Below are positions 6,675-20,022 of a DNA stretch of 64,000 bases, in pieces (the first letter of the stretch is position 1; each line of letters starts with the position of its first letter). The DNA is from Desulfobulbaceae bacterium (GTDB taxonomy: Bacteria; Desulfobacterota; Desulfobulbia; Desulfobulbales; Desulfurivibrionaceae), in assembly GCA_004332195.1 (NCBI GenBank), contig SJBG01000001.1, positions 186,001 to 250,000 of the forward strand, in the 5' to 3' direction. Below the pieces are notes generated by a model. The model did not search any database, was not told the origin of the DNA, and was given only the letters and a program-made list of their open reading frames with translations. Made by a program: the position numbers and the translations under genes.

Positions 6675-8030
6675 ATGGCCGTTATCGCCCCCTTTCGCGC
6701 CGTGCGTTACAACCTGGAACAGATCAGTTCGATTGAAAATGTGCTTTCCCCCCCTTACGATATTATCGATGCTCAGACTCAGGCGGCCTTGTTTACCAAA
6801 AATCCTTACAATATGATTCGGCTGGACTTGAGCAAAAATGTAAAAGCCGCGGGGATGATCGCGGAGCGTTACGCCGGGGCGGCCGAGCTTTTCGCCCGCT
6901 GGCAAAACGATGGGATCTTATTGCGGGAAAAGCAGCCAGCCCTTTACCTCTACGATATTGATTATCTCCGCCCTGGTCAGGCTACAACCATTACCCGGCG
7001 TGGTTTACTGGCCCGGGTCCAACTGGCGGAATTCGCCGAGGGGATCGTCAAGCCCCACGAAAAGACTTTTTCCGGGGTAACCTCCGACCGCTTGCAGCTT
7101 TTGGCCGCCTGCCAGGCCCAGTTCAGCCCAATTTTTTCTATTTATTCGGACCCGCAAGCTGAGGTAATGCGGTTGCTGGAGCAGGCCCGAAGCGCAGGTC
7201 CTCTGTACAGTACCATCGATTACGATGGCTGCGAACATCGGCTTTGGGCGATGAGCGATACGACGGCGCTGGCGGCAGTTCAAGCTTATTTCCGCGACAA
7301 AGCCCTTTATATTGCCGATGGCCATCACCGTTACTCCACCGCTCTTCAGTACCAGGCTTTGGTCCGGGAGCGAGAAGGAGGTCGATTGCCGCCGAAAAGC
7401 TCGGCCAACTACACTATGATGTATCTGTGTGCCATGGAGGATCCTGGCTTAAGTGTCCTGCCCACCCATCGCTTGCTCCGTCTGCCTGGTCACAAGACGG
7501 TGGCCGATTTGCTGCCGGGGCTGGAGCAATATTTTGTAGTGGAGGAAGTTGTCGCCGGCAGCCGGGAAAGCCTGTTGATTGAAACTTTCGGTAAAATGAC
7601 GGAGGGGGGAGACGGCAACCAAAACACCCGTTTCGGCTTCTATCACCCCGGCGAAGATCGCTCCTTTTTATTAACCTTAAAAGATGGAATGATGGATCGG
7701 GAGGCCGCCCATCGGCCGACCGCCCTGCGTGATCTGGACGTGGTCGTACTCTCCGATTTGATCATCGACCGCCTGCCAAATCTTGATCAAACCCGCTGTG
7801 TTCAAGGGGATCTTATCGATTACTTCAGCGACCCCGATGAAGCCCTGGACGTGGCGGTCAAGGAGGCCCTGCGGGCAACGGCGTACACCCCGTTGCTCTT
7901 CCTAATGAACGCGACTTTAGTAGAGCAGGTCCGGCGGGTGGCCGATGAAAACCTGGTGATGCCCCATAAGTCCACCTTTTTCTATCCAAAAATCCTCACC
8001 GGCCTGGCCATTAACCCCCTGGTTGACTGA
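6675..8030 (+). CDS. DUF1015 family protein
   Basis: 451 residues, normal for DUF1015. Seen: the N-terminal MAVIAPFRAVRYN, LSPPYDIID, the conserved IVKPHEKTFSGVTSDRLQLL, and the signature IADGHHRYSTALQY near the middle. The biochemical function of most DUF1015 proteins is unsettled; archaeal serine kinase SerK is a distant relative, and in many bacteria the gene lies near serine or amino-acid genes. ATG 6675 is chosen because AAGGAG ends 9 bp upstream and the family begins there; an earlier ATG at 6645 is in frame. It is divergent from queD and convergent with leuB. Confidence 0.88.
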   Translation: MAVIAPFRAVRYNLEQISSIENVLSPPYDIIDAQTQAALFTKNPYNMIRLDLSKNVKAAGMIAERYAGAAELFARWQNDGILLREKQPALYLYDIDYLRPGQATTITRRGLLARVQLAEFAEGIVKPHEKTFSGVTSDRLQLLAACQAQFSPIFSIYSDPQAEVMRLLEQARSAGPLYSTIDYDGCEHRLWAMSDTTALAAVQAYFRDKALYIADGHHRYSTALQYQALVREREGGRLPPKSSANYTMMYLCAMEDPGLSVLPTHRLLRLPGHKTVADLLPGLEQYFVVEEVVAGSRESLLIETFGKMTEGGDGNQNTRFGFYHPGEDRSFLLTLKDGMMDREAAHRPTALRDLDVVVLSDLIIDRLPNLDQTRCVQGDLIDYFSDPDEALDVAVKEALRATAYTPLLFLMNATLVEQVRRVADENLVMPHKSTFFYPKILTGLAINPLVD

Positions 8031-8078
8031 TACGACCCCAAATTTTGCTATATTTAATAGCTCTGGCAAGAGAGAAGT

Positions 8079-8167
8079 GGTTAAACCTCCAGCATCCAAT
8101 CAACGTAGAATCGCAGGTTGGATTGAATATACGTCAATTCGTTAACTGGATGCTGGAGGCTTGAACC
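8079..8167. terminator. Long inverted repeat between convergent genes
   Basis: Arms at 8079-8098 and 8147-8167 share CCTCCAGCATCCA and its exact complement, extended by GGTT/AACC at the outer ends, with a 48-bp interior. It lies between the stops of the DUF1015 gene and leuB, so it may terminate both, although it lacks a clear T-run and could instead be a small palindromic repeat. Confidence 0.5.
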
Positions 8168-8181
8168 CGAGTATGCTTGCG

Positions 8182-9261
<1,080 letters not shown>

Positions 9262-9521
9262 TCAACTCCTTTAATGACTAACGGCAAAAAATTTCATTTG
9301 AATTCCTTTAGCCCAAGATGTTATACTGCGGGTGTGCTTACGCTAACATACCGGATTGGTGCCGACTTGTTCAAGCAGCTTGTGGGTTCAGGGCCGGAAA
9401 GAGCGGAATGATTAAAATGATTAATTTGATTTTTTATCATTTTTGTGAGATAAGTGTCCTATCAGACATTGATCTGGGTGATTAGTAGACTTTAATTTCA
9501 ACAAGTAAGGAGGTATGGGTG

Positions 9522-9860
9522 ATGAAAAAAGTTACAGCGGTTACCGCGATGGTTTGCGGGATTTTTCTGTTTTTAGCTACTGGTTGCGCCACCACTAGGT
9601 ATGTCGGTGAACGGGTGGGCTTGCTTGAAACCCGAATCAATGCGATTGAGTTACGCTTGGATGCGATGGAATCTCAGCTCAATAGCCTGAGTGGCGACGT
9701 TAGCACGATGCAAGGGGAGTTGCGGGATGTTCGCGGTATGACTCAGGATGCCCGGGATGCCGCAGCCCAATCGGCAGCGGCGGCCAATGCCGCGGCAGCT
9801 CGGGCGGAGGCAGCTGCGGATCGAGTACAAAAGATTTTTGAACTTAAGCAGCGAAAATAG
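9522..9860 (+). CDS. Small coiled-coil lipoprotein
   Basis: 112 residues. A short basic start, a hydrophobic stretch and the lipobox LATGC with Cys22 indicate a lipoprotein signal. The mature part is heptad-patterned (LLETRINAIELRLDAMESQL) and then alanine-rich, like Lpp-type envelope lipoproteins, but I cannot assign a family. ATG 9522 has a strong AAGGAGG 8 bp upstream. The 260-bp AT-rich region before it is shared with divergent leuB and probably holds both promoters. Confidence 0.8.
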   Translation: MKKVTAVTAMVCGIFLFLATGCATTRYVGERVGLLETRINAIELRLDAMESQLNSLSGDVSTMQGELRDVRGMTQDARDAAAQSAAAANAAAARAEAAADRVQKIFELKQRK

Positions 9861-9941
9861 GTGAGTTTAGCTGCATGGACGAGATGGAGGGGGTGTAAAT
9901 GTTTTGCGTAAGCGACCATAGATCCCCACCGCGGGCGGTGA

Positions 9942-10332
9942 AAATATCCTGAACTCAATCTTAATCGCAAAACGGTATTGTTTTCTGCGTGCTTTATCTC
10001 GGCCGCGCCTGCGCAGTTCACCGGCCCGACCCATGCAGGAGGCGTAAGCACCGTGAAGGAGGCCAAAACCGCCCGTTTCGGTGCCTACATCACGCTCACC
10101 GGAAAAATAGTTGCCCACATTCGAGAGGAATACTATTTGTTTCGCGACGAAACCGGGGAGATCCGGGTCGAGATTGAAAACGAGTTTTGGCGAAACAGTA
10201 GTAGAAATTGATCATGAATATTTCAGGGGCGCAGTTGTCACACCCAAAACTAAAATAAGGATTGTTGGTGAAGTGGACAGGAATGGGGACAGAACATACG
10301 TAGACGCATATTACTTAGAAATCGTGAAATAA
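9942..10332 (+). pseudogene. Frameshifted, apparently chimeric YgiW-type OB-fold protein
   Basis: The first part (frame of 9978) reads FSACFISAAPAQFTGP, a degraded signal peptide end, then VSTVKEAKTARFGAYITLTGKI and YYLFRDETGEIRVEI, typical of the YgiW/YdeI periplasmic OB-fold family. It hits a stop at 10209. The rest of the domain continues in the +1 frame from about 10190: VVEIDHEYFRGAVVTPKTKI, IVGEVDRNGD to a stop at 10332. The motif VEI.(N/H)E(F/Y) occurs at both sides of the junction, and the second part is AT-rich with AGG, AGA and ATA codons while the first is GC-rich. No good start codon or ribosome site is visible. Confidence 0.65.
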
Positions 10333-10846
10333 CCAAGTCAGTCGGGCAGCCGGTGTTTTTTCCCCAATCACAACGCTCCGCACGCGGCTTCGCGCGGGGC
10401 GTTTCACCGTAAGGTTACCGAACCGTAGCCAGGCAATGAATTTTCGACCACTGTTCTTTCAGTGGTCGGTCGTCAGTTCCGTAACTTTCCCGGGTACGCC
10501 CACGGGGGCAGCATTGGTCTTCAGCGCAAGCCGCGCGTTATCCGAAGTCAGTCAGAGACCGCGGCTCTTTTCGCCGGGCGTAACAGCCCTTTACGGAGAC
10601 TCGGGAAAACCCTGCTTGGGCAGGGGGCAGGGACAAGAGGCGGGACGATCGTGCCCGTTATCATCACGTGCCCGGCGGTGACTTCTCGACAAAGTACTAA
10701 AGTGTGCGGCCGCTTTTCCTTAGGACGTCGCGCTCTATCTTGTTCGACGGCCATCGGGGCGACGAGTACGTGGGCCAAGTCGACGGCCGCCAGGCAGGCT
10801 GGTTCAAAACTCTCTCATTCGATGGCTGCGGGCCGCCCATAGCTCA
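10333..10846. other. Gene-free stretch with a strong GC stem-loop
   Basis: I see no convincing gene here on either strand. It contains a near-perfect stem-loop at 10372-10403 (AACGCTCCGC pairing with GCGCGGGGCGTT, TTCG-like tip). There is no T-run directly after it, so it is not a classic terminator on the plus strand. Confidence 0.4.
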
Positions 10847-13429: not shown

Positions 13430-13870
13430 TCAGATTCGGTGACGATACACCCAGAGATGACGACTGAGTAAACCCAGGAAAATGGTGCCCATCATGCCGT
13501 GGCCGTGTTCTCGCCCCTGGGCAAGTAAGGCTAGAGCAGCTAACAGGGAGACTATCATCCCACGTTTAATCCAGCTCATCGGTGGCCAGCGCAAGAGTGG
13601 TTGGCAATGGCTGGTCTTAACATTTTTTGGCGGCTGCCTGGCTTGATGACTTGTTGCTTGGTCGGCGTCAGCAAAAAGGGCCAGGATCGCGGTGTTTTTT
13701 TCCTTTTCCCCGAAAAGAATTAATATGCTGCCGGTTTGCGGGGTGTACTGCAGTACGGCGAACGGAACAATGCTTTTGATCTTTCGGATTAACTCCTCAA
13801 GGGCCGGGGGTGCCAGAGGTTCTGGGTAGCGCAGACGGATGCGTCCGGGGATTGCGTGGGTGATGACCAT
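13430..13870 (-). CDS. HMA2-type metal-binding domain protein with C-terminal membrane segments (FezC-like)
   Basis: 146 residues. Residues about 1-75 are an HMA-like domain of the cysteine-free type: HAIPGRIRLRYPE at the start and the strand motif TPQTGSILILFGE. Residues about 105-140 hold two hydrophobic segments (MIVSLLAALALLAQG and GTIFLGLLSRHLWV). The gene starts inside the ATPase stop (TAATG), with GGAGG upstream, so the two are translationally coupled. Proteins of this make accompany ferrosome-type P1B ATPases, which is why I compare it with FezC; that is an inference from context. It could also bind or guide another metal. Confidence 0.75.
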   Translation of the reverse strand: MVITHAIPGRIRLRYPEPLAPPALEELIRKIKSIVPFAVLQYTPQTGSILILFGEKEKNTAILALFADADQATSHQARQPPKNVKTSHCQPLLRWPPMSWIKRGMIVSLLAALALLAQGREHGHGMMGTIFLGLLSRHLWVYRHRI

Positions 13871-15993
13871 TATTTGCCTCCTGTGGCGGGCGCCAGAGAT
13901 TGAGGTAGAGTATAGGGACGAATGGCGTTGATCGCCGCGGCAATAGTCGCCGAATTGTGGAGCAGTGCCCCAAGGGCCGGCGATGAGACACCCACAAGGG
14001 CGCCTGCCAGCAAAATTGAGTTGACCCCGACGATGAAGGCGAAGTTGTAACGAATTCGGGAGAGGGATGCGGCGGCCAGAGCGCGCAGGGTGGGCAGGGC
14101 CATGAGGTTGTTGCTGGTCAGCACGATATCGGCAATGTCACGGGCCATGTCAGCCCCTTTATGCATGCAGCAACCTACCGATGCTTCAGCAATAGCCGCG
14201 GCATCATTGAGCCCATCTCCCACCATGACCGTTATATGGCCAGCCTCCTTGAGACTTTTGATATAATTAACCTTATCATCGGGCAGAGCCTGGGCCATCC
14301 ATTCAGTTACCCCGAGCTCCTCGGCGCTGCGGGCCGCCATCCCGTCTAAGTCGCCGGTAAGAATGATAACTCGCCGCACCCCCATGCCGCGGAGGGTGGA
14401 AATCACCTGAGCCGCTTCGGGGCGGGGGGGGTCTTCCAAGGCAAAGCCGGCGACCAGTTTACCCCCTACCGTTAGGTAAATAATGGTTTGTCCCAGATCT
14501 TCCCAGCGCTGGGTATGGGACTGAAGCGGGGAAATATCTATATTTTCGTCATCTTCTATAAAATGCCGACTACCAAGCAAGATACGATGTCCCTCAAGGC
14601 AGCTTGCTACCCCGTGGGCGGTTACGTATTCCGCGGCGAGGTGGTGTTCCTCATGTTCCAATCCCTCGATATCGGCCTGATGCACTACGGCTTTAGCCAC
14701 CGGATGGGGGAAGTGTTCCTCCAGACAGGCGGCCAAGCGCAAGGCCTGGTGGCGAGTCCAACCGTTGCAGGGAACAATATCATGCACCGAAGGAGTGGCC
14801 ATGGTCAGAGTTCCGGTTTTGTCGAAGATAAACACGTCGGCCTTGGCCAAGTCCTCAAGATGACGACCTCCACGCACCATTGCGCCCAGGGAGGTCGCCT
14901 GGCGCATGGCAGACAGCACGGCCAGCGGGGTGGCCAACTTGATGGCGCAAGAGTAGTCTACCAGCAGAACTGCCGCGGTTCGACGCAGATCACGGGTAAT
15001 CAGGAAAACCAAAAGGGCCAGGCCCAAAGAGAAAGGGGCTAGGCGCCCGGCCAGACGTTCGGCCTGACTCTGGATTCCCGCCTTGCGTTGATCAGCATCT
15101 TCAAGCAGCAACAGGGTGCGACGCCAAACGGTTTTGTCCCCATCCTCGGTGGCCTGAATGAGCAGCTCGCCTTCTTCTAGTACTGAGCCGGCAAATACGG
15201 CCTTACCGGGGCGTTTTTCTTGAAACTTGGCCTCGCCGGTCATCAGGCTTTGGTCGACCATGCCTTCTCCTTGCTTAACCACACCATCGGCGGGAATGAA
15301 ATTGCCTTGGCGGACAACGACCATGTCGCCGACCCGCAGGGCGGTGGCGTCCACCAGCTTTTCTTGCTTGCCTTGGCGCACGCGGGCTTTGATCGCATGG
15401 CGGGCCAGGGAATCGGCCAGATCTTCCGCCGAGCGTTTTTTGGTCCAGTGTTCGAGCGATTCGCCGATAGCAAGGAGTATCGTGATCGCGGTGAGACTGC
15501 GAAAATCTCTGAGGATGATGCAGATAGCAATGGCCGCCGCATTCAGCACATTCACGTCCAAAATGCGATGCCATAAGTTACCCAGACCCCTACGCAACCT
15601 GGGCCAGGCTCGCTTGATGGCTAATACCCGATTCAGGCCCGAAGGCAGGAAAGGTTGCAAGGCCAGAGTAGCCATGATTTCCGTCATGCCGGGGGGTGTC
15701 TCTGATGGTGGCGACTTGTCCGGAATAGCGAGCAGACCGCCTCCCTCTTGGCTTCCTTCCTGGCCGGTTTGTCCCCGAGTCACGACCGTATCAAGGGTCA
15801 GCAGCAAATCGTTACGATTAATCACCCCCGGATCGTAGCGCACCAACAAACTCGCGGCCATAGGTGAAAAAAGGACGTCAAACACGCCGGGGGATGAGCC
15901 GACGGCCATGCCCCGAGACAGAGCAGCGGCCTCCCGACGGGTAGCGCGGAGTCGCATTCGCCCGGGCAGCTCATGAACGATGGTGATTACCAC
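13870..15993 (-). CDS. Heavy-metal P1B-type ATPase with N-terminal HMA2 domain (FezB-like)
   Basis: 707 residues. It opens with an HMA2-like domain (HELPGRMRLRAT, residues 1-70), then membrane segments, the actuator TGEAKFQEKRPG, the transport-site helix SCAIKLATP in place of the usual CPC, the phosphorylation site DKTGTLT, the EEHFPHPVAK histidine-proline pair and GDGLNDAAAIAEA. These are all the catalytic parts of a P1B pump. The SCA-type helix, the HMA2 domain and the neighbours fit the subgroup that includes FezB, which loads iron into ferrosome compartments. Start GTG 15993 has GGGAG upstream. Substrate iron is inferred from its place behind feoAABC; Mn, Zn or Co remain possible. Confidence 0.9.
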   Translation of the reverse strand: MVITIVHELPGRMRLRATRREAAALSRGMAVGSSPGVFDVLFSPMAASLLVRYDPGVINRNDLLLTLDTVVTRGQTGQEGSQEGGGLLAIPDKSPPSETPPGMTEIMATLALQPFLPSGLNRVLAIKRAWPRLRRGLGNLWHRILDVNVLNAAAIAICIILRDFRSLTAITILLAIGESLEHWTKKRSAEDLADSLARHAIKARVRQGKQEKLVDATALRVGDMVVVRQGNFIPADGVVKQGEGMVDQSLMTGEAKFQEKRPGKAVFAGSVLEEGELLIQATEDGDKTVWRRTLLLLEDADQRKAGIQSQAERLAGRLAPFSLGLALLVFLITRDLRRTAAVLLVDYSCAIKLATPLAVLSAMRQATSLGAMVRGGRHLEDLAKADVFIFDKTGTLTMATPSVHDIVPCNGWTRHQALRLAACLEEHFPHPVAKAVVHQADIEGLEHEEHHLAAEYVTAHGVASCLEGHRILLGSRHFIEDDENIDISPLQSHTQRWEDLGQTIIYLTVGGKLVAGFALEDPPRPEAAQVISTLRGMGVRRVIILTGDLDGMAARSAEELGVTEWMAQALPDDKVNYIKSLKEAGHITVMVGDGLNDAAAIAEASVGCCMHKGADMARDIADIVLTSNNLMALPTLRALAAASLSRIRYNFAFIVGVNSILLAGALVGVSSPALGALLHNSATIAAAINAIRPYTLPQSLAPATGGK

Positions 15994-16043
15994 TGTTTCT
16001 CCCTTGAAGTAGCGTTGACGGCTGAAAGATGGAACGGTGAGGC

Positions 16044-16376
16044 CTATTTTTTGCCGCCGGTTTTTTGGGCGGTGGCGACTTTAGGGTCAGTATCAGCTTT
16101 GGCGGCTGTACTCGTTGCAGTCTCGGCCTCGACATCCCGCCCCTCGGCCTTGGTCGCCCGCGCGTGCTCGACCTCGGCGAAAAAATCGCTCACGTCCTCC
16201 TGGGTCCGCTGGAGGATGCCTGCCGCCTTGTCGCGCAGTTCCAGAGCTCCGGCAGTTAAACCCACCAAGGCGGGACGCAGATCCGCCGGGTCTTTTTTCG
16301 ATAGGGCGATAAACGCTAGGGAGCCCATGGCGGCTCCGCCCAGGAACAATAAAATTTTTTCCGTTACATCGTTCAT
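16044..16376 (-). CDS. YtxH-like single-pass membrane protein (possible FezA-like)
   Basis: 110 residues. A hydrophobic N-terminal helix with small residues (ILLFLGGAAMGSLAFIAL) is followed by a helical, charged region and an Ala/Thr/Lys-rich tail ending in KTGGKK. It has AAAGGAGAG 6 bp before ATG 16376 and lies between the HMA pseudogene and the P1B ATPase in the same operon. Ferrosome loci encode a small protein with a hydrophobic GxxxG-like N-terminus next to the ATPase; the resemblance is in architecture and position only. Confidence 0.7.
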   Translation of the reverse strand: MNDVTEKILLFLGGAAMGSLAFIALSKKDPADLRPALVGLTAGALELRDKAAGILQRTQEDVSDFFAEVEHARATKAEGRDVEAETATSTAAKADTDPKVATAQKTGGKK

Positions 16377-16419
16377 TGCGTCTCTCCTTTAGCTTTGAGA
16401 TTGGTGGAGAGCAGGCGAT

Positions 16420-16777
16420 TCAACAACTCACCGGCTCGATCAACGCTGGGGCTGCGAAAAAAGCATCCACCAGCGTAAACGGCATAATTTCGGGGTCGTA
16501 TTCAAGCAGTATTGAGCCGGTGAGAGGACTAGTCTGAACGGAGCGCATCCCGGGCAATTGTCGCAGGTGCGATTCCAACGCAGCGCCTGCGCAGCGCCTG
16601 CCCCCATATCTTCCACAAAGCGCAAGGCCCGCAATGCCGCCACCCCCGGTCGAAGTCTCACCCGCATTCGCGGCCGGGCAGGTGATGGATTAAACCCAGA
16701 TGAGGCCACAAGGCCAGCAGTGCCCGCCGCGACTGGAGGGCATCAGGCGAGTTGATCACCGGCCCGGATGGTGGCAT
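16420..16777 (-). pseudogene. HMA2-domain protein gene broken by two frameshifts
   Basis: From ATG 16777 the first frame gives MPPSGPVINSPDAL, then LGLIHHLPGR, the standard HMA2 opening. The domain continues in a second frame as MRVRLRPGVAALRALRFVED and in a third as ESHLRQLPGMRSV, TSPLTGSILLEYDPEIM to a stop at 16420. The second shift coincides with an 11-bp tandem duplication, CGCAGCGCCTG at 16579-16589 and 16590-16600; with one copy removed the second and third frames join into a good HMA2 sequence. The first shift needs a further 1- or 2-base change near 16670. The gene begins 5 bp after feoC, so it is part of the iron operon. Confidence 0.8.
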
Positions 16778-16782
16778 CCGAT

Positions 16783-17010
16783 TCACTTTCCCAGCCACTC
16801 ATAGGCCACGAGTGACGCAGGATCACAGCGGCAACACCCTGAACAGGCAGTTTCGACTCCGTCAGCATGGCGCCTCGCCTTACCTTTGTTCACCCAGATC
16901 TCAAGTAGCGGTTTAACCGTATCGACCTCCACCTTGAAGTGAAGGGCGATTTCCTGCAGGGAGGCAACCCGGCGCTCTCGCAGGTAGTGTTTCACCTGAA
17001 TCAGATCCAT
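16783..17010 (-). CDS. feoC: FeoC-type winged-helix regulator
   Basis: 75 residues, normal for FeoC. It is a small winged-helix protein that accompanies FeoB and is thought to control FeoB activity or stability. Seen: MDLIQVKHYLRERRVASLQE with the helix-turn-helix core (LHFKVEVDTVKPLLE) and a C-terminal cysteine cluster CSGCCRC that could bind an Fe-S centre. I start at ATG 17010 since the family begins a few residues before the winged helix; a longer frame runs up to 17097 but crosses a stem-loop. A 14-bp hairpin lies between feoB and this gene. Confidence 0.85.
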   Translation of the reverse strand: MDLIQVKHYLRERRVASLQEIALHFKVEVDTVKPLLEIWVNKGKARRHADGVETACSGCCRCDPASLVAYEWLGK

Positions 17011-17027
17011 TATAACCCCCGTTATCA

Positions 17028-17060
17028 CAAGAAAGTGGGCGAGATGCGCCCACTTTCTTG
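17028..17060 (-). terminator. Perfect 14-bp stem-loop between feoB and feoC
   Basis: Arms at 17028-17041 and 17047-17060 (CAAGAAAGTGGGCG and its exact complement) with a 5-base loop. On the minus strand it follows feoB by about 70 bp and precedes feoC by 17 bp. There is no T-run after it on the minus strand, so an attenuating or RNA-protecting structure within the operon is more likely than full termination. Confidence 0.65.
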
Positions 17061-17128
17061 TATCCTTTGGGTCTCGGCGACGATAGTGTACAATCACTGA
17101 GCGTTCTTGTAAAGACGGAACTGATTTT

Positions 17129-19483
17129 CTATCTCATTTCGCTTGGAACCGGAACTGGTTCCCCGATCCTGATCGACCGGGTTTGGGCCCGAACTCGGCC
17201 CAACAGGGCCAGGCCGGCGACCACGGCGATAAAGGTGCCCAGACCGGCGCCGATAACGGTCAAAGCATAGCTCGGATTGGCGGCGAAATTGACCGTCTGA
17301 TAGTAGAGAGTCGCGGCCAGATAGGCCATAAAGGTAGTCCAGAACCCGGCAAAGGCGGTCCAGGCAAGGTTGGTCTCGCGGTAAACCGCGGCAATCGCCG
17401 CGACACAAGGAAAATAGAGGAGCACGAAGAGCAGGTAGGCAAAGGCCGCGCTCTGGCTGGCAAAAAGGGTGGCCATTGAGCCGAAGATGGCCGCATCGAC
17501 CCCCTGTTCTTCCGCGGCCAAAGTGGCATCGCCGATATCGCCTAAAGAGATGCCCAAGGGATCGGTCAGGGTCTCAAACACCCCCAACAGGTTTTCCGGA
17601 ATACTGGCAAAGGCGGCAGCGATTCCGGCAAAGAGGCTAAAAGGTTCTTCCTGGGCTTCCAGGCCGACTTCCGCTTGGCGGTCGATTCCGGCATAAAGCG
17701 CGTTTAGGGTGCCGACCACCGCTTCCTTGGCAAAAAGTCCGGTGAAGATCCCAACGGTGGCCGGCCAGTTTTCTTCGCTTACCCCCATGGGTTTAAACGC
17801 CGGGGTGATCACCTTGCTCACCGAAGAGAGCGCCGACTTGTCGGTATTCTCATTGCCAAAACTGCCGTCGGTTCCAAGGGAGTTCATAAAGGAGAGGACG
17901 ACGATTACCGGAATCAGAATCTTGCCCGCCCGAAACATGAAGGTCTTGAGCCGGTCATAGGCCCTGAGAAGCACCGTGTGGGCGGTGGGCATCTGGTAGT
18001 TGGGCAGCTCCATGACAAAAGGGGTGGATTTCCCTTTGAGCAGGGTGTTTTTGAGGACCAGCCCGGTGAGAACCGCAAAGCCGATTCCGATGAGGTAGAG
18101 CAGGAAAACCAGGTTTTGGCCGCCGACCGGGAAAAAGGCCGCGGCAAAAAGTGCGTAGACCGGCAACCGGGCCCCACAGGACATGAAGGGGTTCATCATG
18201 ACCGTCAGGGTTCGGTCACGCTCATTATCCAGGGTCCTGGTCGCCATGATCGCCGGCACATTACACCCAAAACCGACCAGCATCGGCACGAAGGCTTTGC
18301 CCGGCAAGCCGATAAAGCGCATGAAACGGTCCATGACGAAAGCGGCCCGGGCCATGTATCCCGAGTCTTCAAGTATAGAGAGAAAAATAAACATGAAGCC
18401 GATGGGCGGAATAAAGGTCGCTATGGTCTGGATGCCGCCGCCGATGCCGCCGGCCAGGACGACGATCAGCCATTCCGGGGTATGGACCACGGCCAGCAAC
18501 GCCGCAAAGCCGTCAACGAAAATGGTCCCGAAAAATTGATCAAAAAAGTCGATGAAGGCCCCGCCGAGATTGATGGTGAACATGAACATCAGATACATCA
18601 CCAGCAGAAACAACGGGATTCCGAAAAACCGGTTCAGCACGATGTTGTCGATCCGGTCGGACAGCGTGACGTTGATCTGACCCCGTTTTTTGACCAGGTC
18701 TTTGGTCAGCCAGGAGATAAACCCATACCTGGCCGAGGCAATGACAATATCGACTTCCTCATCTTCCCGTCGTTCAATTTGTTCTTGGGCGGCGGCGACT
18801 TGGGTCATGATTTTCTTGTCGACCGCCGCCTGGGCCAACTCATCCCCTTCGAGTAGCTTCAAGGCAAGCCAGTGGGGATCGGTTTTTTTGCTGGGGTCGA
18901 TCTTCGTGAGTTCCCGCGCCAGGCTTGATCTTGCCTCTTGCACCGGGGCGGGATAGATGATCTCGGCGACCGGCAGGCTGATCCCGCGGTCGGCACGGAA
19001 AATTGCCTCCTTAAGCTCCTTTATCCCCTTGTTTTTTGCGGCGGTAATCGGGATGACCGGGCATCCCAGGCGTTGGGCCAGGCCCTGGACATCGATGGTC
19101 AGTTGTCGTTGTTTGGCCATGTCCATCATGTTCAGGGCGATGACCATGGGAACCCGCATTTCCAGGAGCTGGCTGGTGAGGTAGAGGTTACGTTCGATGT
19201 TGGAGGCATCGACGATATTGACGATGAGATCGGCCTCCTGGGAGAGAACAAAATCGCGGGCAATTTTCTCGTCCAGGGAAGTGGCGGAGAGGGAATAGAT
19301 GCCGGGGGTGTCAACCACCTCCACCATCATTTCCCCGAAGCGGTAGTTCCCGATTTTTTGATCCACCGTTACCCCAGGCCAATTACCCACCCGCTGTTTG
19401 GCCCCGGTCAGGCTGTTGAATAACGTGGTTTTCCCACAGTTGGGGTTGCCGACTACCCCGATGATCATCATTTTGTCTTTCAT
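17129..19483 (-). CDS. feoB: Ferrous iron transporter FeoB
   Basis: 784 residues, normal for FeoB. The N-terminal GTPase has G1 GNPNCGKTTLFNSLTG, G3 DTPGIYSLS and G4 NMMD. The membrane part shows the Gate motifs, for example SCGARLPVYALF and PCVAAIAAVYRE, with many transmembrane helices. It imports Fe2+ across the inner membrane. Its ATG overlaps the feoA stop (ATGA), indicating translational coupling. The order feoA-feoA-feoB-feoC on one strand continues into the HMA/ATPase genes, which ties iron uptake to the putative storage pump. Confidence 0.97.
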   Translation of the reverse strand: MKDKMMIIGVVGNPNCGKTTLFNSLTGAKQRVGNWPGVTVDQKIGNYRFGEMMVEVVDTPGIYSLSATSLDEKIARDFVLSQEADLIVNIVDASNIERNLYLTSQLLEMRVPMVIALNMMDMAKQRQLTIDVQGLAQRLGCPVIPITAAKNKGIKELKEAIFRADRGISLPVAEIIYPAPVQEARSSLARELTKIDPSKKTDPHWLALKLLEGDELAQAAVDKKIMTQVAAAQEQIERREDEEVDIVIASARYGFISWLTKDLVKKRGQINVTLSDRIDNIVLNRFFGIPLFLLVMYLMFMFTINLGGAFIDFFDQFFGTIFVDGFAALLAVVHTPEWLIVVLAGGIGGGIQTIATFIPPIGFMFIFLSILEDSGYMARAAFVMDRFMRFIGLPGKAFVPMLVGFGCNVPAIMATRTLDNERDRTLTVMMNPFMSCGARLPVYALFAAAFFPVGGQNLVFLLYLIGIGFAVLTGLVLKNTLLKGKSTPFVMELPNYQMPTAHTVLLRAYDRLKTFMFRAGKILIPVIVVLSFMNSLGTDGSFGNENTDKSALSSVSKVITPAFKPMGVSEENWPATVGIFTGLFAKEAVVGTLNALYAGIDRQAEVGLEAQEEPFSLFAGIAAAFASIPENLLGVFETLTDPLGISLGDIGDATLAAEEQGVDAAIFGSMATLFASQSAAFAYLLFVLLYFPCVAAIAAVYRETNLAWTAFAGFWTTFMAYLAATLYYQTVNFAANPSYALTVIGAGLGTFIAVVAGLALLGRVRAQTRSIRIGEPVPVPSEMR

Positions 19484-19719
19484 TGCGGCACTTCCTTGAC
19501 TTGCAGCACTTTGGCCTCTTCCTTGCGCAAGGTGAGGCTGAAACCCCGCACCTTGATCTCCACCGGATCGCCCAGGGGCGCCACTCGGGCGACCTGGAAT
19601 CCGGTTCCCTTGATCAGCCCCATCGCCAGCAGTTTTTGCCGGTAGTGGGAGGCGCCCCTATTGAAGCCGATCACCTGCCCCATCTCCCCGACCACAAAAT
19701 CGGCCAATGTCTTTTCCAT
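19480..19719 (-). CDS. feoA: FeoA domain protein (proximal to feoB)
   Basis: 79 residues. An SH3-like FeoA protein that supports FeoB at the cytoplasmic face. Seen: the typical core QKLLAMGLIKGTGFQVARVA, PLGDPVEIKVRGFSLTLRK. ATG 19719 follows the preceding feoA stop by 2 bp, with AGG about 8 bp upstream; a GTG at 19728 would overlap the upstream gene. The stop overlaps feoB. Confidence 0.93.
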   Translation of the reverse strand: MEKTLADFVVGEMGQVIGFNRGASHYRQKLLAMGLIKGTGFQVARVAPLGDPVEIKVRGFSLTLRKEEAKVLQVKEVPQ

Positions 19720-19721
19720 TT

Positions 19722-19991
19722 TTAGCACCTGATTACGTTAATTTTGTGGGCCATTCCGCTGCCCAGGATAATCCGGTCATGGTCGTGCGCAAGCAGTATC
19801 GCCCCGCCGTCCTGCTTGCGCACGATCATGACCTTGTTGTCAAGGTGAATCCCCAGGCCCAGCAGGCGTTCTCGCAGTGATCTGCCCCGAATCAGCACGA
19901 TCTTCACGGTTTCACCCTCGGCGGCAAAGGCCAAGGGGAATGAGGAGCGCGGAATCCCATTCTTCCCCTGTGGATTCAAACCTGTTTGCAT
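19722..19991 (-). CDS. feoA: FeoA domain protein (first gene of the operon)
   Basis: About 89 residues. The second FeoA-type SH3 domain of the operon: EGETVKIVLIRGRSLRERLL, LGIHLDNKVMIVRKQDGGAI, ending with the family's metal-independent RIILGSGMAHKINV. Double FeoA genes before feoB are common in Desulfobacterota. The start is uncertain: ATG 19991, ATG 20003 and GTG 20009 are in frame, and none has well-spaced ribosome site. No Fur box could be placed confidently in the 300 bp upstream. Confidence 0.88.
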   Translation of the reverse strand: MQTGLNPQGKNGIPRSSFPLAFAAEGETVKIVLIRGRSLRERLLGLGIHLDNKVMIVRKQDGGAILLAHDHDRIILGSGMAHKINVIRC

Positions 19992-20022
19992 CTTCCTCTG
20001 CATCCTCACGCTAAAACCGATA

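Follow-up and report, generated by a model that had tools for sequence, protein, structure and literature searches.

The stretch of DNA analysed here (the window, 64,000 nucleotides) comes from a host of the genus Desulfurivibrio, and from position 20009 down to 13430 its minus strand carries, in this order, feoA, feoA, feoB, feoC, a broken HMA2 gene, fezA, fezB and fezC. Three pairs overlap (FeoA/FeoA, FeoA/FeoB and FezB/FezC), and the remaining intergenic gaps are short. A first-pass annotation had proposed this gene content, on one strand with overlaps or short gaps, and it is borne out by Pfam and NCBIfam, in which the feo genes are recognised as such and the ATPase as a heavy-metal P-type pump. 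In the following lines RS-1 is D. magneticus RS-1, and held-out profiles are those built without the window's own rows.

19722..20009, minus strand: feoA, first copy (PF04023, E 1.5e-12)
19480..19728, minus strand: feoA, second copy (PF04023, E 1.5e-16)
17129..19483, minus strand: feoB, ferrous iron permease (PF02421, E 6e-68; TIGR00437, 641.9 bits)
17027..17061: perfect 15-bp hairpin between feoB and feoC (dG -25.9 kcal/mol, z -6.85)
16783..17097, minus strand: feoC (PF09012, E 4.4e-20, alignment beginning at residue 32)
16420..16779, minus strand: broken HMA2 gene with two frame changes (third piece PF19991, E 5.7e-4)
16044..16376, minus strand: fezA-type small membrane protein, DUF6110/PacL-like (38% identity to RS-1 FezA, E 4e-17; held-out profile E 2.9e-16)
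13870..15993, minus strand: fezB, P1B-6 ATPase that begins with an HMA2 domain (43% identity to RS-1 FezB over the full length; clade support 100/100)
13430..13870, minus strand: fezC-type HMA2 and two-helix membrane protein (23% identity to RS-1 FezC, E 6e-8; held-out profile E 7.2e-28)

The fezA, fezB and fezC genes and all of the feo genes are intact. FeoB has the PF02421, FeoB_C and Gate domains (Pfam), and the true start of feoC is probably near 17010 rather than at 17097. The coding sequence of the first feoA contains, at 19775-19833, an inverted repeat of 22 nt (95%) around a 15-nt loop. When the held-out profiles were run against all 407 open reading frames of the window, they picked out fezB (E 9.5e-251) together with fezC and fezA, and the only further matches among these frames were the HMA2 domains of the cluster itself; because the three genes are recovered and no frames outside the cluster are, the cluster is not a product of chance.

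FezB is reportedly a P1B-6 ATPase, according to the abstract of a 2022 ferrosome study. The window FezB scores 479 bits against the heavy-metal P-type ATPase family TIGR01525 (NCBIfam), carries DYSCAIKLATP in TM4 and LLHNS in TM6, and retains every column that is invariant in an alignment of 40 FezB-type pumps; its AlphaFold model has a complete P-type domain chain and an N-terminal HMA-like domain (pLDDT 82.6). P1B6 pumps are characterised by an HN motif that is conserved in TM6 and by neighbours of the DUF6110 family (PMC9374683), and as read from its sequence the window pump has the P1B-6 hallmarks, with SCA in TM4, HN in TM6 and a DUF6110-like neighbour. A FezB protein has been described as a putative Fe(II) transporter (PMC11334425).

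Phylogenetic placement of the ATPase, a check set beforehand, used a tree of 37 rows built under a mixture model, with references that include RS-1 and Rhodopseudomonas sp. BR0M22 but leave out the Shewanella and Clostridioides pumps; a scan of named genomes gave relatives of the Azospirillum-type pump alone. The P1B-6 pumps all fall in a single clade of 28 rows (100/100), and nested within it is a clade of 18 that holds the window pump, RS-1 FezB and 16 others (100/100), so the window ATPase does not fall outside the FezB-type pumps. Its sister is the pump of locus L217 (genome G536; 52-53% identity, 100/100). The wider P1B-6 clade takes in the six-gene-type pump of Rhodopseudomonas sp. BR0M22 (L133), and the window pump is therefore flanked in the tree by pumps from organisms that are known to make ferrosomes or are closely related to such organisms.

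The two small partners of the pump had also been suggested to be fez-like, and they do match RS-1 FezA and FezC both in sequence and in position. The window FezA has no Pfam or NCBIfam match, and family profiles were needed to recognise it; elsewhere in the FezA family DUF6110 is matched by the proteins of L220 (3e-8) and L217 (2.5e-5), and weakly by that of RS-1 (0.049). It is 43% identical to the L217 FezA and consists of one helix with a GxxxG motif followed by an acidic helix, with no His/Asp metal-binding motif at its C-terminal end. The residues common to FezA-type proteins are G14, G18, E60, D64, A67 and E68. A FezA-type gene lies directly upstream of 132 of 139 P1B-6 pumps (139 genes in 136 loci), and the window FezA occupies this same position.

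FezC has been described as a DUF4405-like heme-b cytochrome (PMC11334425). DUF4405 is matched weakly by 21 of 40 FezC family members, and the window FezC has no DUF4405 match and falls below the Pfam cut-off for HMA_2. FezC-type proteins have in common G9, R10, R12, R14, S48, H124 and H138, the two histidines being putative heme-b ligands in the window protein. The H-x13-H pattern is present in 87 of 103 FezC-type candidates, which is a fair count as this set was chosen without the pattern, whereas its presence in alignment A4 is partly due to selection; the other 16 candidates appear by eye to be HMA2-only proteins or wrong frames. AlphaFold predicts an HMA-like domain together with a hairpin of two helices that is modelled with confidence (pLDDT 82.8), and a search with this fold against the PDB gave no significant match.

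The closest characterised cluster is fezABC of RS-1, which makes ferrosomes. The reference genome used for it has a contig that is 100% identical to plasmid NC_012797.1 (Solidesulfovibrio magneticus RS-1) over the 2,000 bases compared, and a search with the P1B-6 alignment yields a single match in this genome, at locus L212 (fezA 7456-7716, fezB 7732-9963, fezC 9944-10384). The RS-1 and window clusters share the fezA-fezB-fezC order, the fezB/fezC overlap, the same fixed FezA and FezC residues, and an N-terminal HMA2-like domain in FezB. They differ in what precedes them: the window genes stand behind feoA-feoA-feoB-feoC and the broken HMA2 gene, whereas the genes upstream of RS-1 fezA look by eye to encode a cytochrome bd oxidase together with a regulator of the Rrf2 type. 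The nearest relative, L217, has the same A-B-C order as the window, but no feo genes were found within 7 kb of it. The L220 locus (G523) has feoA-feoB-fezA-fezB-fezC on one strand, matching the window order including feo, although its FezB is nearer to the Desulfovibrio-like feoA-fezA-fezB group.

In R. palustris CGA009, ferrosomes are built by a set of six fez genes (PMC12016538). Like the window, the six-gene operons of Rhodopseudomonas, Azospirillum and Magnetospirillum have FezA beside FezB, a FezC-type protein and an HMA2-only protein, and some are linked to feo as the window cluster is (for example L113, L114 and L130); they differ in having two extra small hydrophobic genes, a FezC-type gene in first position and a FezB of the sister clade. 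The two small hydrophobic genes are absent from the window, whose HMA2-only gene is broken, and with just fezA, fezB, fezC and this remnant the window was rejected as a six-gene (Rhodopseudomonas-type) operon. Among other Desulfobacterota loci (L089, L090, L094, L216, L218, L219 and L221-L225) a P1B-6 pump is in some cases accompanied by another pump that has ACPCAT in TM4, these additional pumps forming their own clade near P1B-6; and some of L219, L221, L222, L224 and L225 have a third, diverged P1B-6-like pump with an altered TM4 (DYACAVKFPTP and DYVCSVKLPAP, for example).

The first-pass annotation had one partner of the pump damaged. The HMA2 gene is indeed broken by two frame changes, the second coinciding with an 11-bp tandem duplication (16579-16600) that looks like a real slippage mutation, but the damaged gene is neither FezA nor FezC. 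Nor is it FezB; its pieces line up in the correct order (weakly for the first, at E 0.5, and otherwise at E 6e-6) with a profile of HMA2-only proteins with an HHxPGR start, a family found in six-gene clusters and other loci. The gene resembles a remnant of the accessory HMA2-only protein of other fez clusters, and no HMA2-only gene is found beside fez at the RS-1, L217 or L220 loci.

A direct coupling of fez to Feo had been proposed as well, and the gene order on which it drew is real and recurrent. Of 130 other P1B-6 loci, 24 (from several classes) have a feoB gene on the strand of the pump and no more than 5.5 kb away, 17 of them among the 80 named loci and 7 among the 50 from Desulfobacterota, although these loci were drawn by similarity and the fractions are not frequencies in nature. 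The Feo link is therefore not unique to the window but recurs, for instance in Magnetospirillum (L113, L114, L130), Rhodoblastus (L115, L118), Thauera, Azotobacter and L220. That uptake and storage form one transcribed unit is unproven, because the strong terminator-like hairpin at 17027-17061, with fully complementary (100%) A-rich and T-rich arms, separates feoB from feoC-fez. Transcription arriving from either side could end at this hairpin, and feoAAB may be transcribed separately from feoC-fezABC or with attenuation between them. In three upstream stretches no Fur box match was better than those in shuffled sequence. In most of the loci L063-L072 (genus g94, family f54) a lone feoA, with no feoB, precedes fezA-fezB and fezC is divergent, an arrangement that suggests FeoA acting with the storage pump.

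Among the 58 relatives searched, a pump of the FezB kind was found only in one genome of another family (G036), and there is none in the four genus mates (two of them at least 99% complete) or in the rest of the family. A close match to the window FeoB is missing from three of these genus mates, and the fourth has a distant one (39%); in two of the four (G002 and G003) no such feo or fez gene follows tsaB, where the window has feo-fez. These absences suggest that feo-fez was gained by horizontal transfer, and the source may have been Desulfovibrionaceae-like. The host genome has one other ferritin-family gene, a weak match.

Several other readings of the locus warrant consideration. It is unlikely, in our estimation, that the genes serve plain metal efflux, with FezB exporting iron (or another metal) to the periplasm from FezA-organised patches, much as in a PacL/Ctp effluxosome and with no internal compartment. 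There are points of likeness: in Mycobacterium tuberculosis PacL/CtpC the gene for a small one-helix protein immediately precedes that for a P1B6-like pump (PMC9374683); DUF6110, whose members are called PacL-like, is matched by the FezA family; and the FezA helix has invariant G14 and G18, while PacL2 clustering needs transmembrane glycines (PMC13043812). PacL/CtpC nonetheless differs from the window in its DUF1490, its C-terminal metal motif, its CPC pump and its lack of a FezC; the window pump has SCA rather than CPC in TM4, its FezA has no His/Asp tail and relatives of that FezA match DUF6110, and the window was rejected as an effluxosome of this type. FezC is present, the closest characterised cluster makes ferrosomes, and storage fits a placement beside iron import better than export does.

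The broken HMA2 gene, with its two frame changes, and the absence of the pump from the four other genomes of the genus might instead mark a system on its way out, in which no ferrosomes are formed. We regard this as very unlikely, since fezA, fezB, fezC and the whole feo set are intact and retain each residue that is invariant in the family, and RS-1, L217 and L220 are likewise without an HMA2-only gene beside fez. It is harder still to credit, and we think it highly improbable, that the pump moves another metal (Zn, Mn, Ni or Co) and stands beside feo by chance: specificity is not readable from sequence alone, and CtpC, a P1B6-like pump, moves zinc (PMC9374683), but the recurrence of a linked feoB across several classes speaks against coincidence.

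We therefore consider it very probable that fezA-fezB-fezC, which in the window comes immediately after an operon for ferrous iron uptake, is a ferrosome (fez) cluster of the type seen in D. magneticus RS-1. The original fez assignment holds by gene content and order, homology to RS-1, clade and conserved residues, with ferrosome formation putative. In such a ferrosome system FeoB would import Fe(II) into the cytoplasm, and FezB would move it across a membrane that goes on to enclose an internal vesicle. FezA would be a small scaffold gathering FezB into membrane patches through its GxxxG helix, an idea prompted by the description of DUF6110 proteins as PacL-like and the role of transmembrane glycines in clustering (PMC13043812). 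FezC, as a two-helix cytochrome, would pass electrons across the vesicle membrane and set the redox state of iron for storage or release, and co-expression of these genes with feo may occur. It is possible, if rather doubtful, that FezA and the mycobacterial PacL scaffolds are one family, so that a single membrane-patch device would serve in both ferrosomes and effluxosomes; at loci that join fez to feo, Fe(II) may then pass from FeoB to FezB within one patch, physically joining uptake to storage.

The ferrosome fez system is already known, and the Desulfurivibrio cluster is an added member of it, with a Feo link that is also seen in other bacteria. It places a putative ferrosome cluster in a genus whose four other genomes are without the pump, and it narrows the minimal set, as the HMA2-only gene is broken and fezA, fezB and fezC keep all of the residues that are fixed in their families. 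The recurrent adjacency of fez and feo makes uptake and storage directly testable as a joined function.
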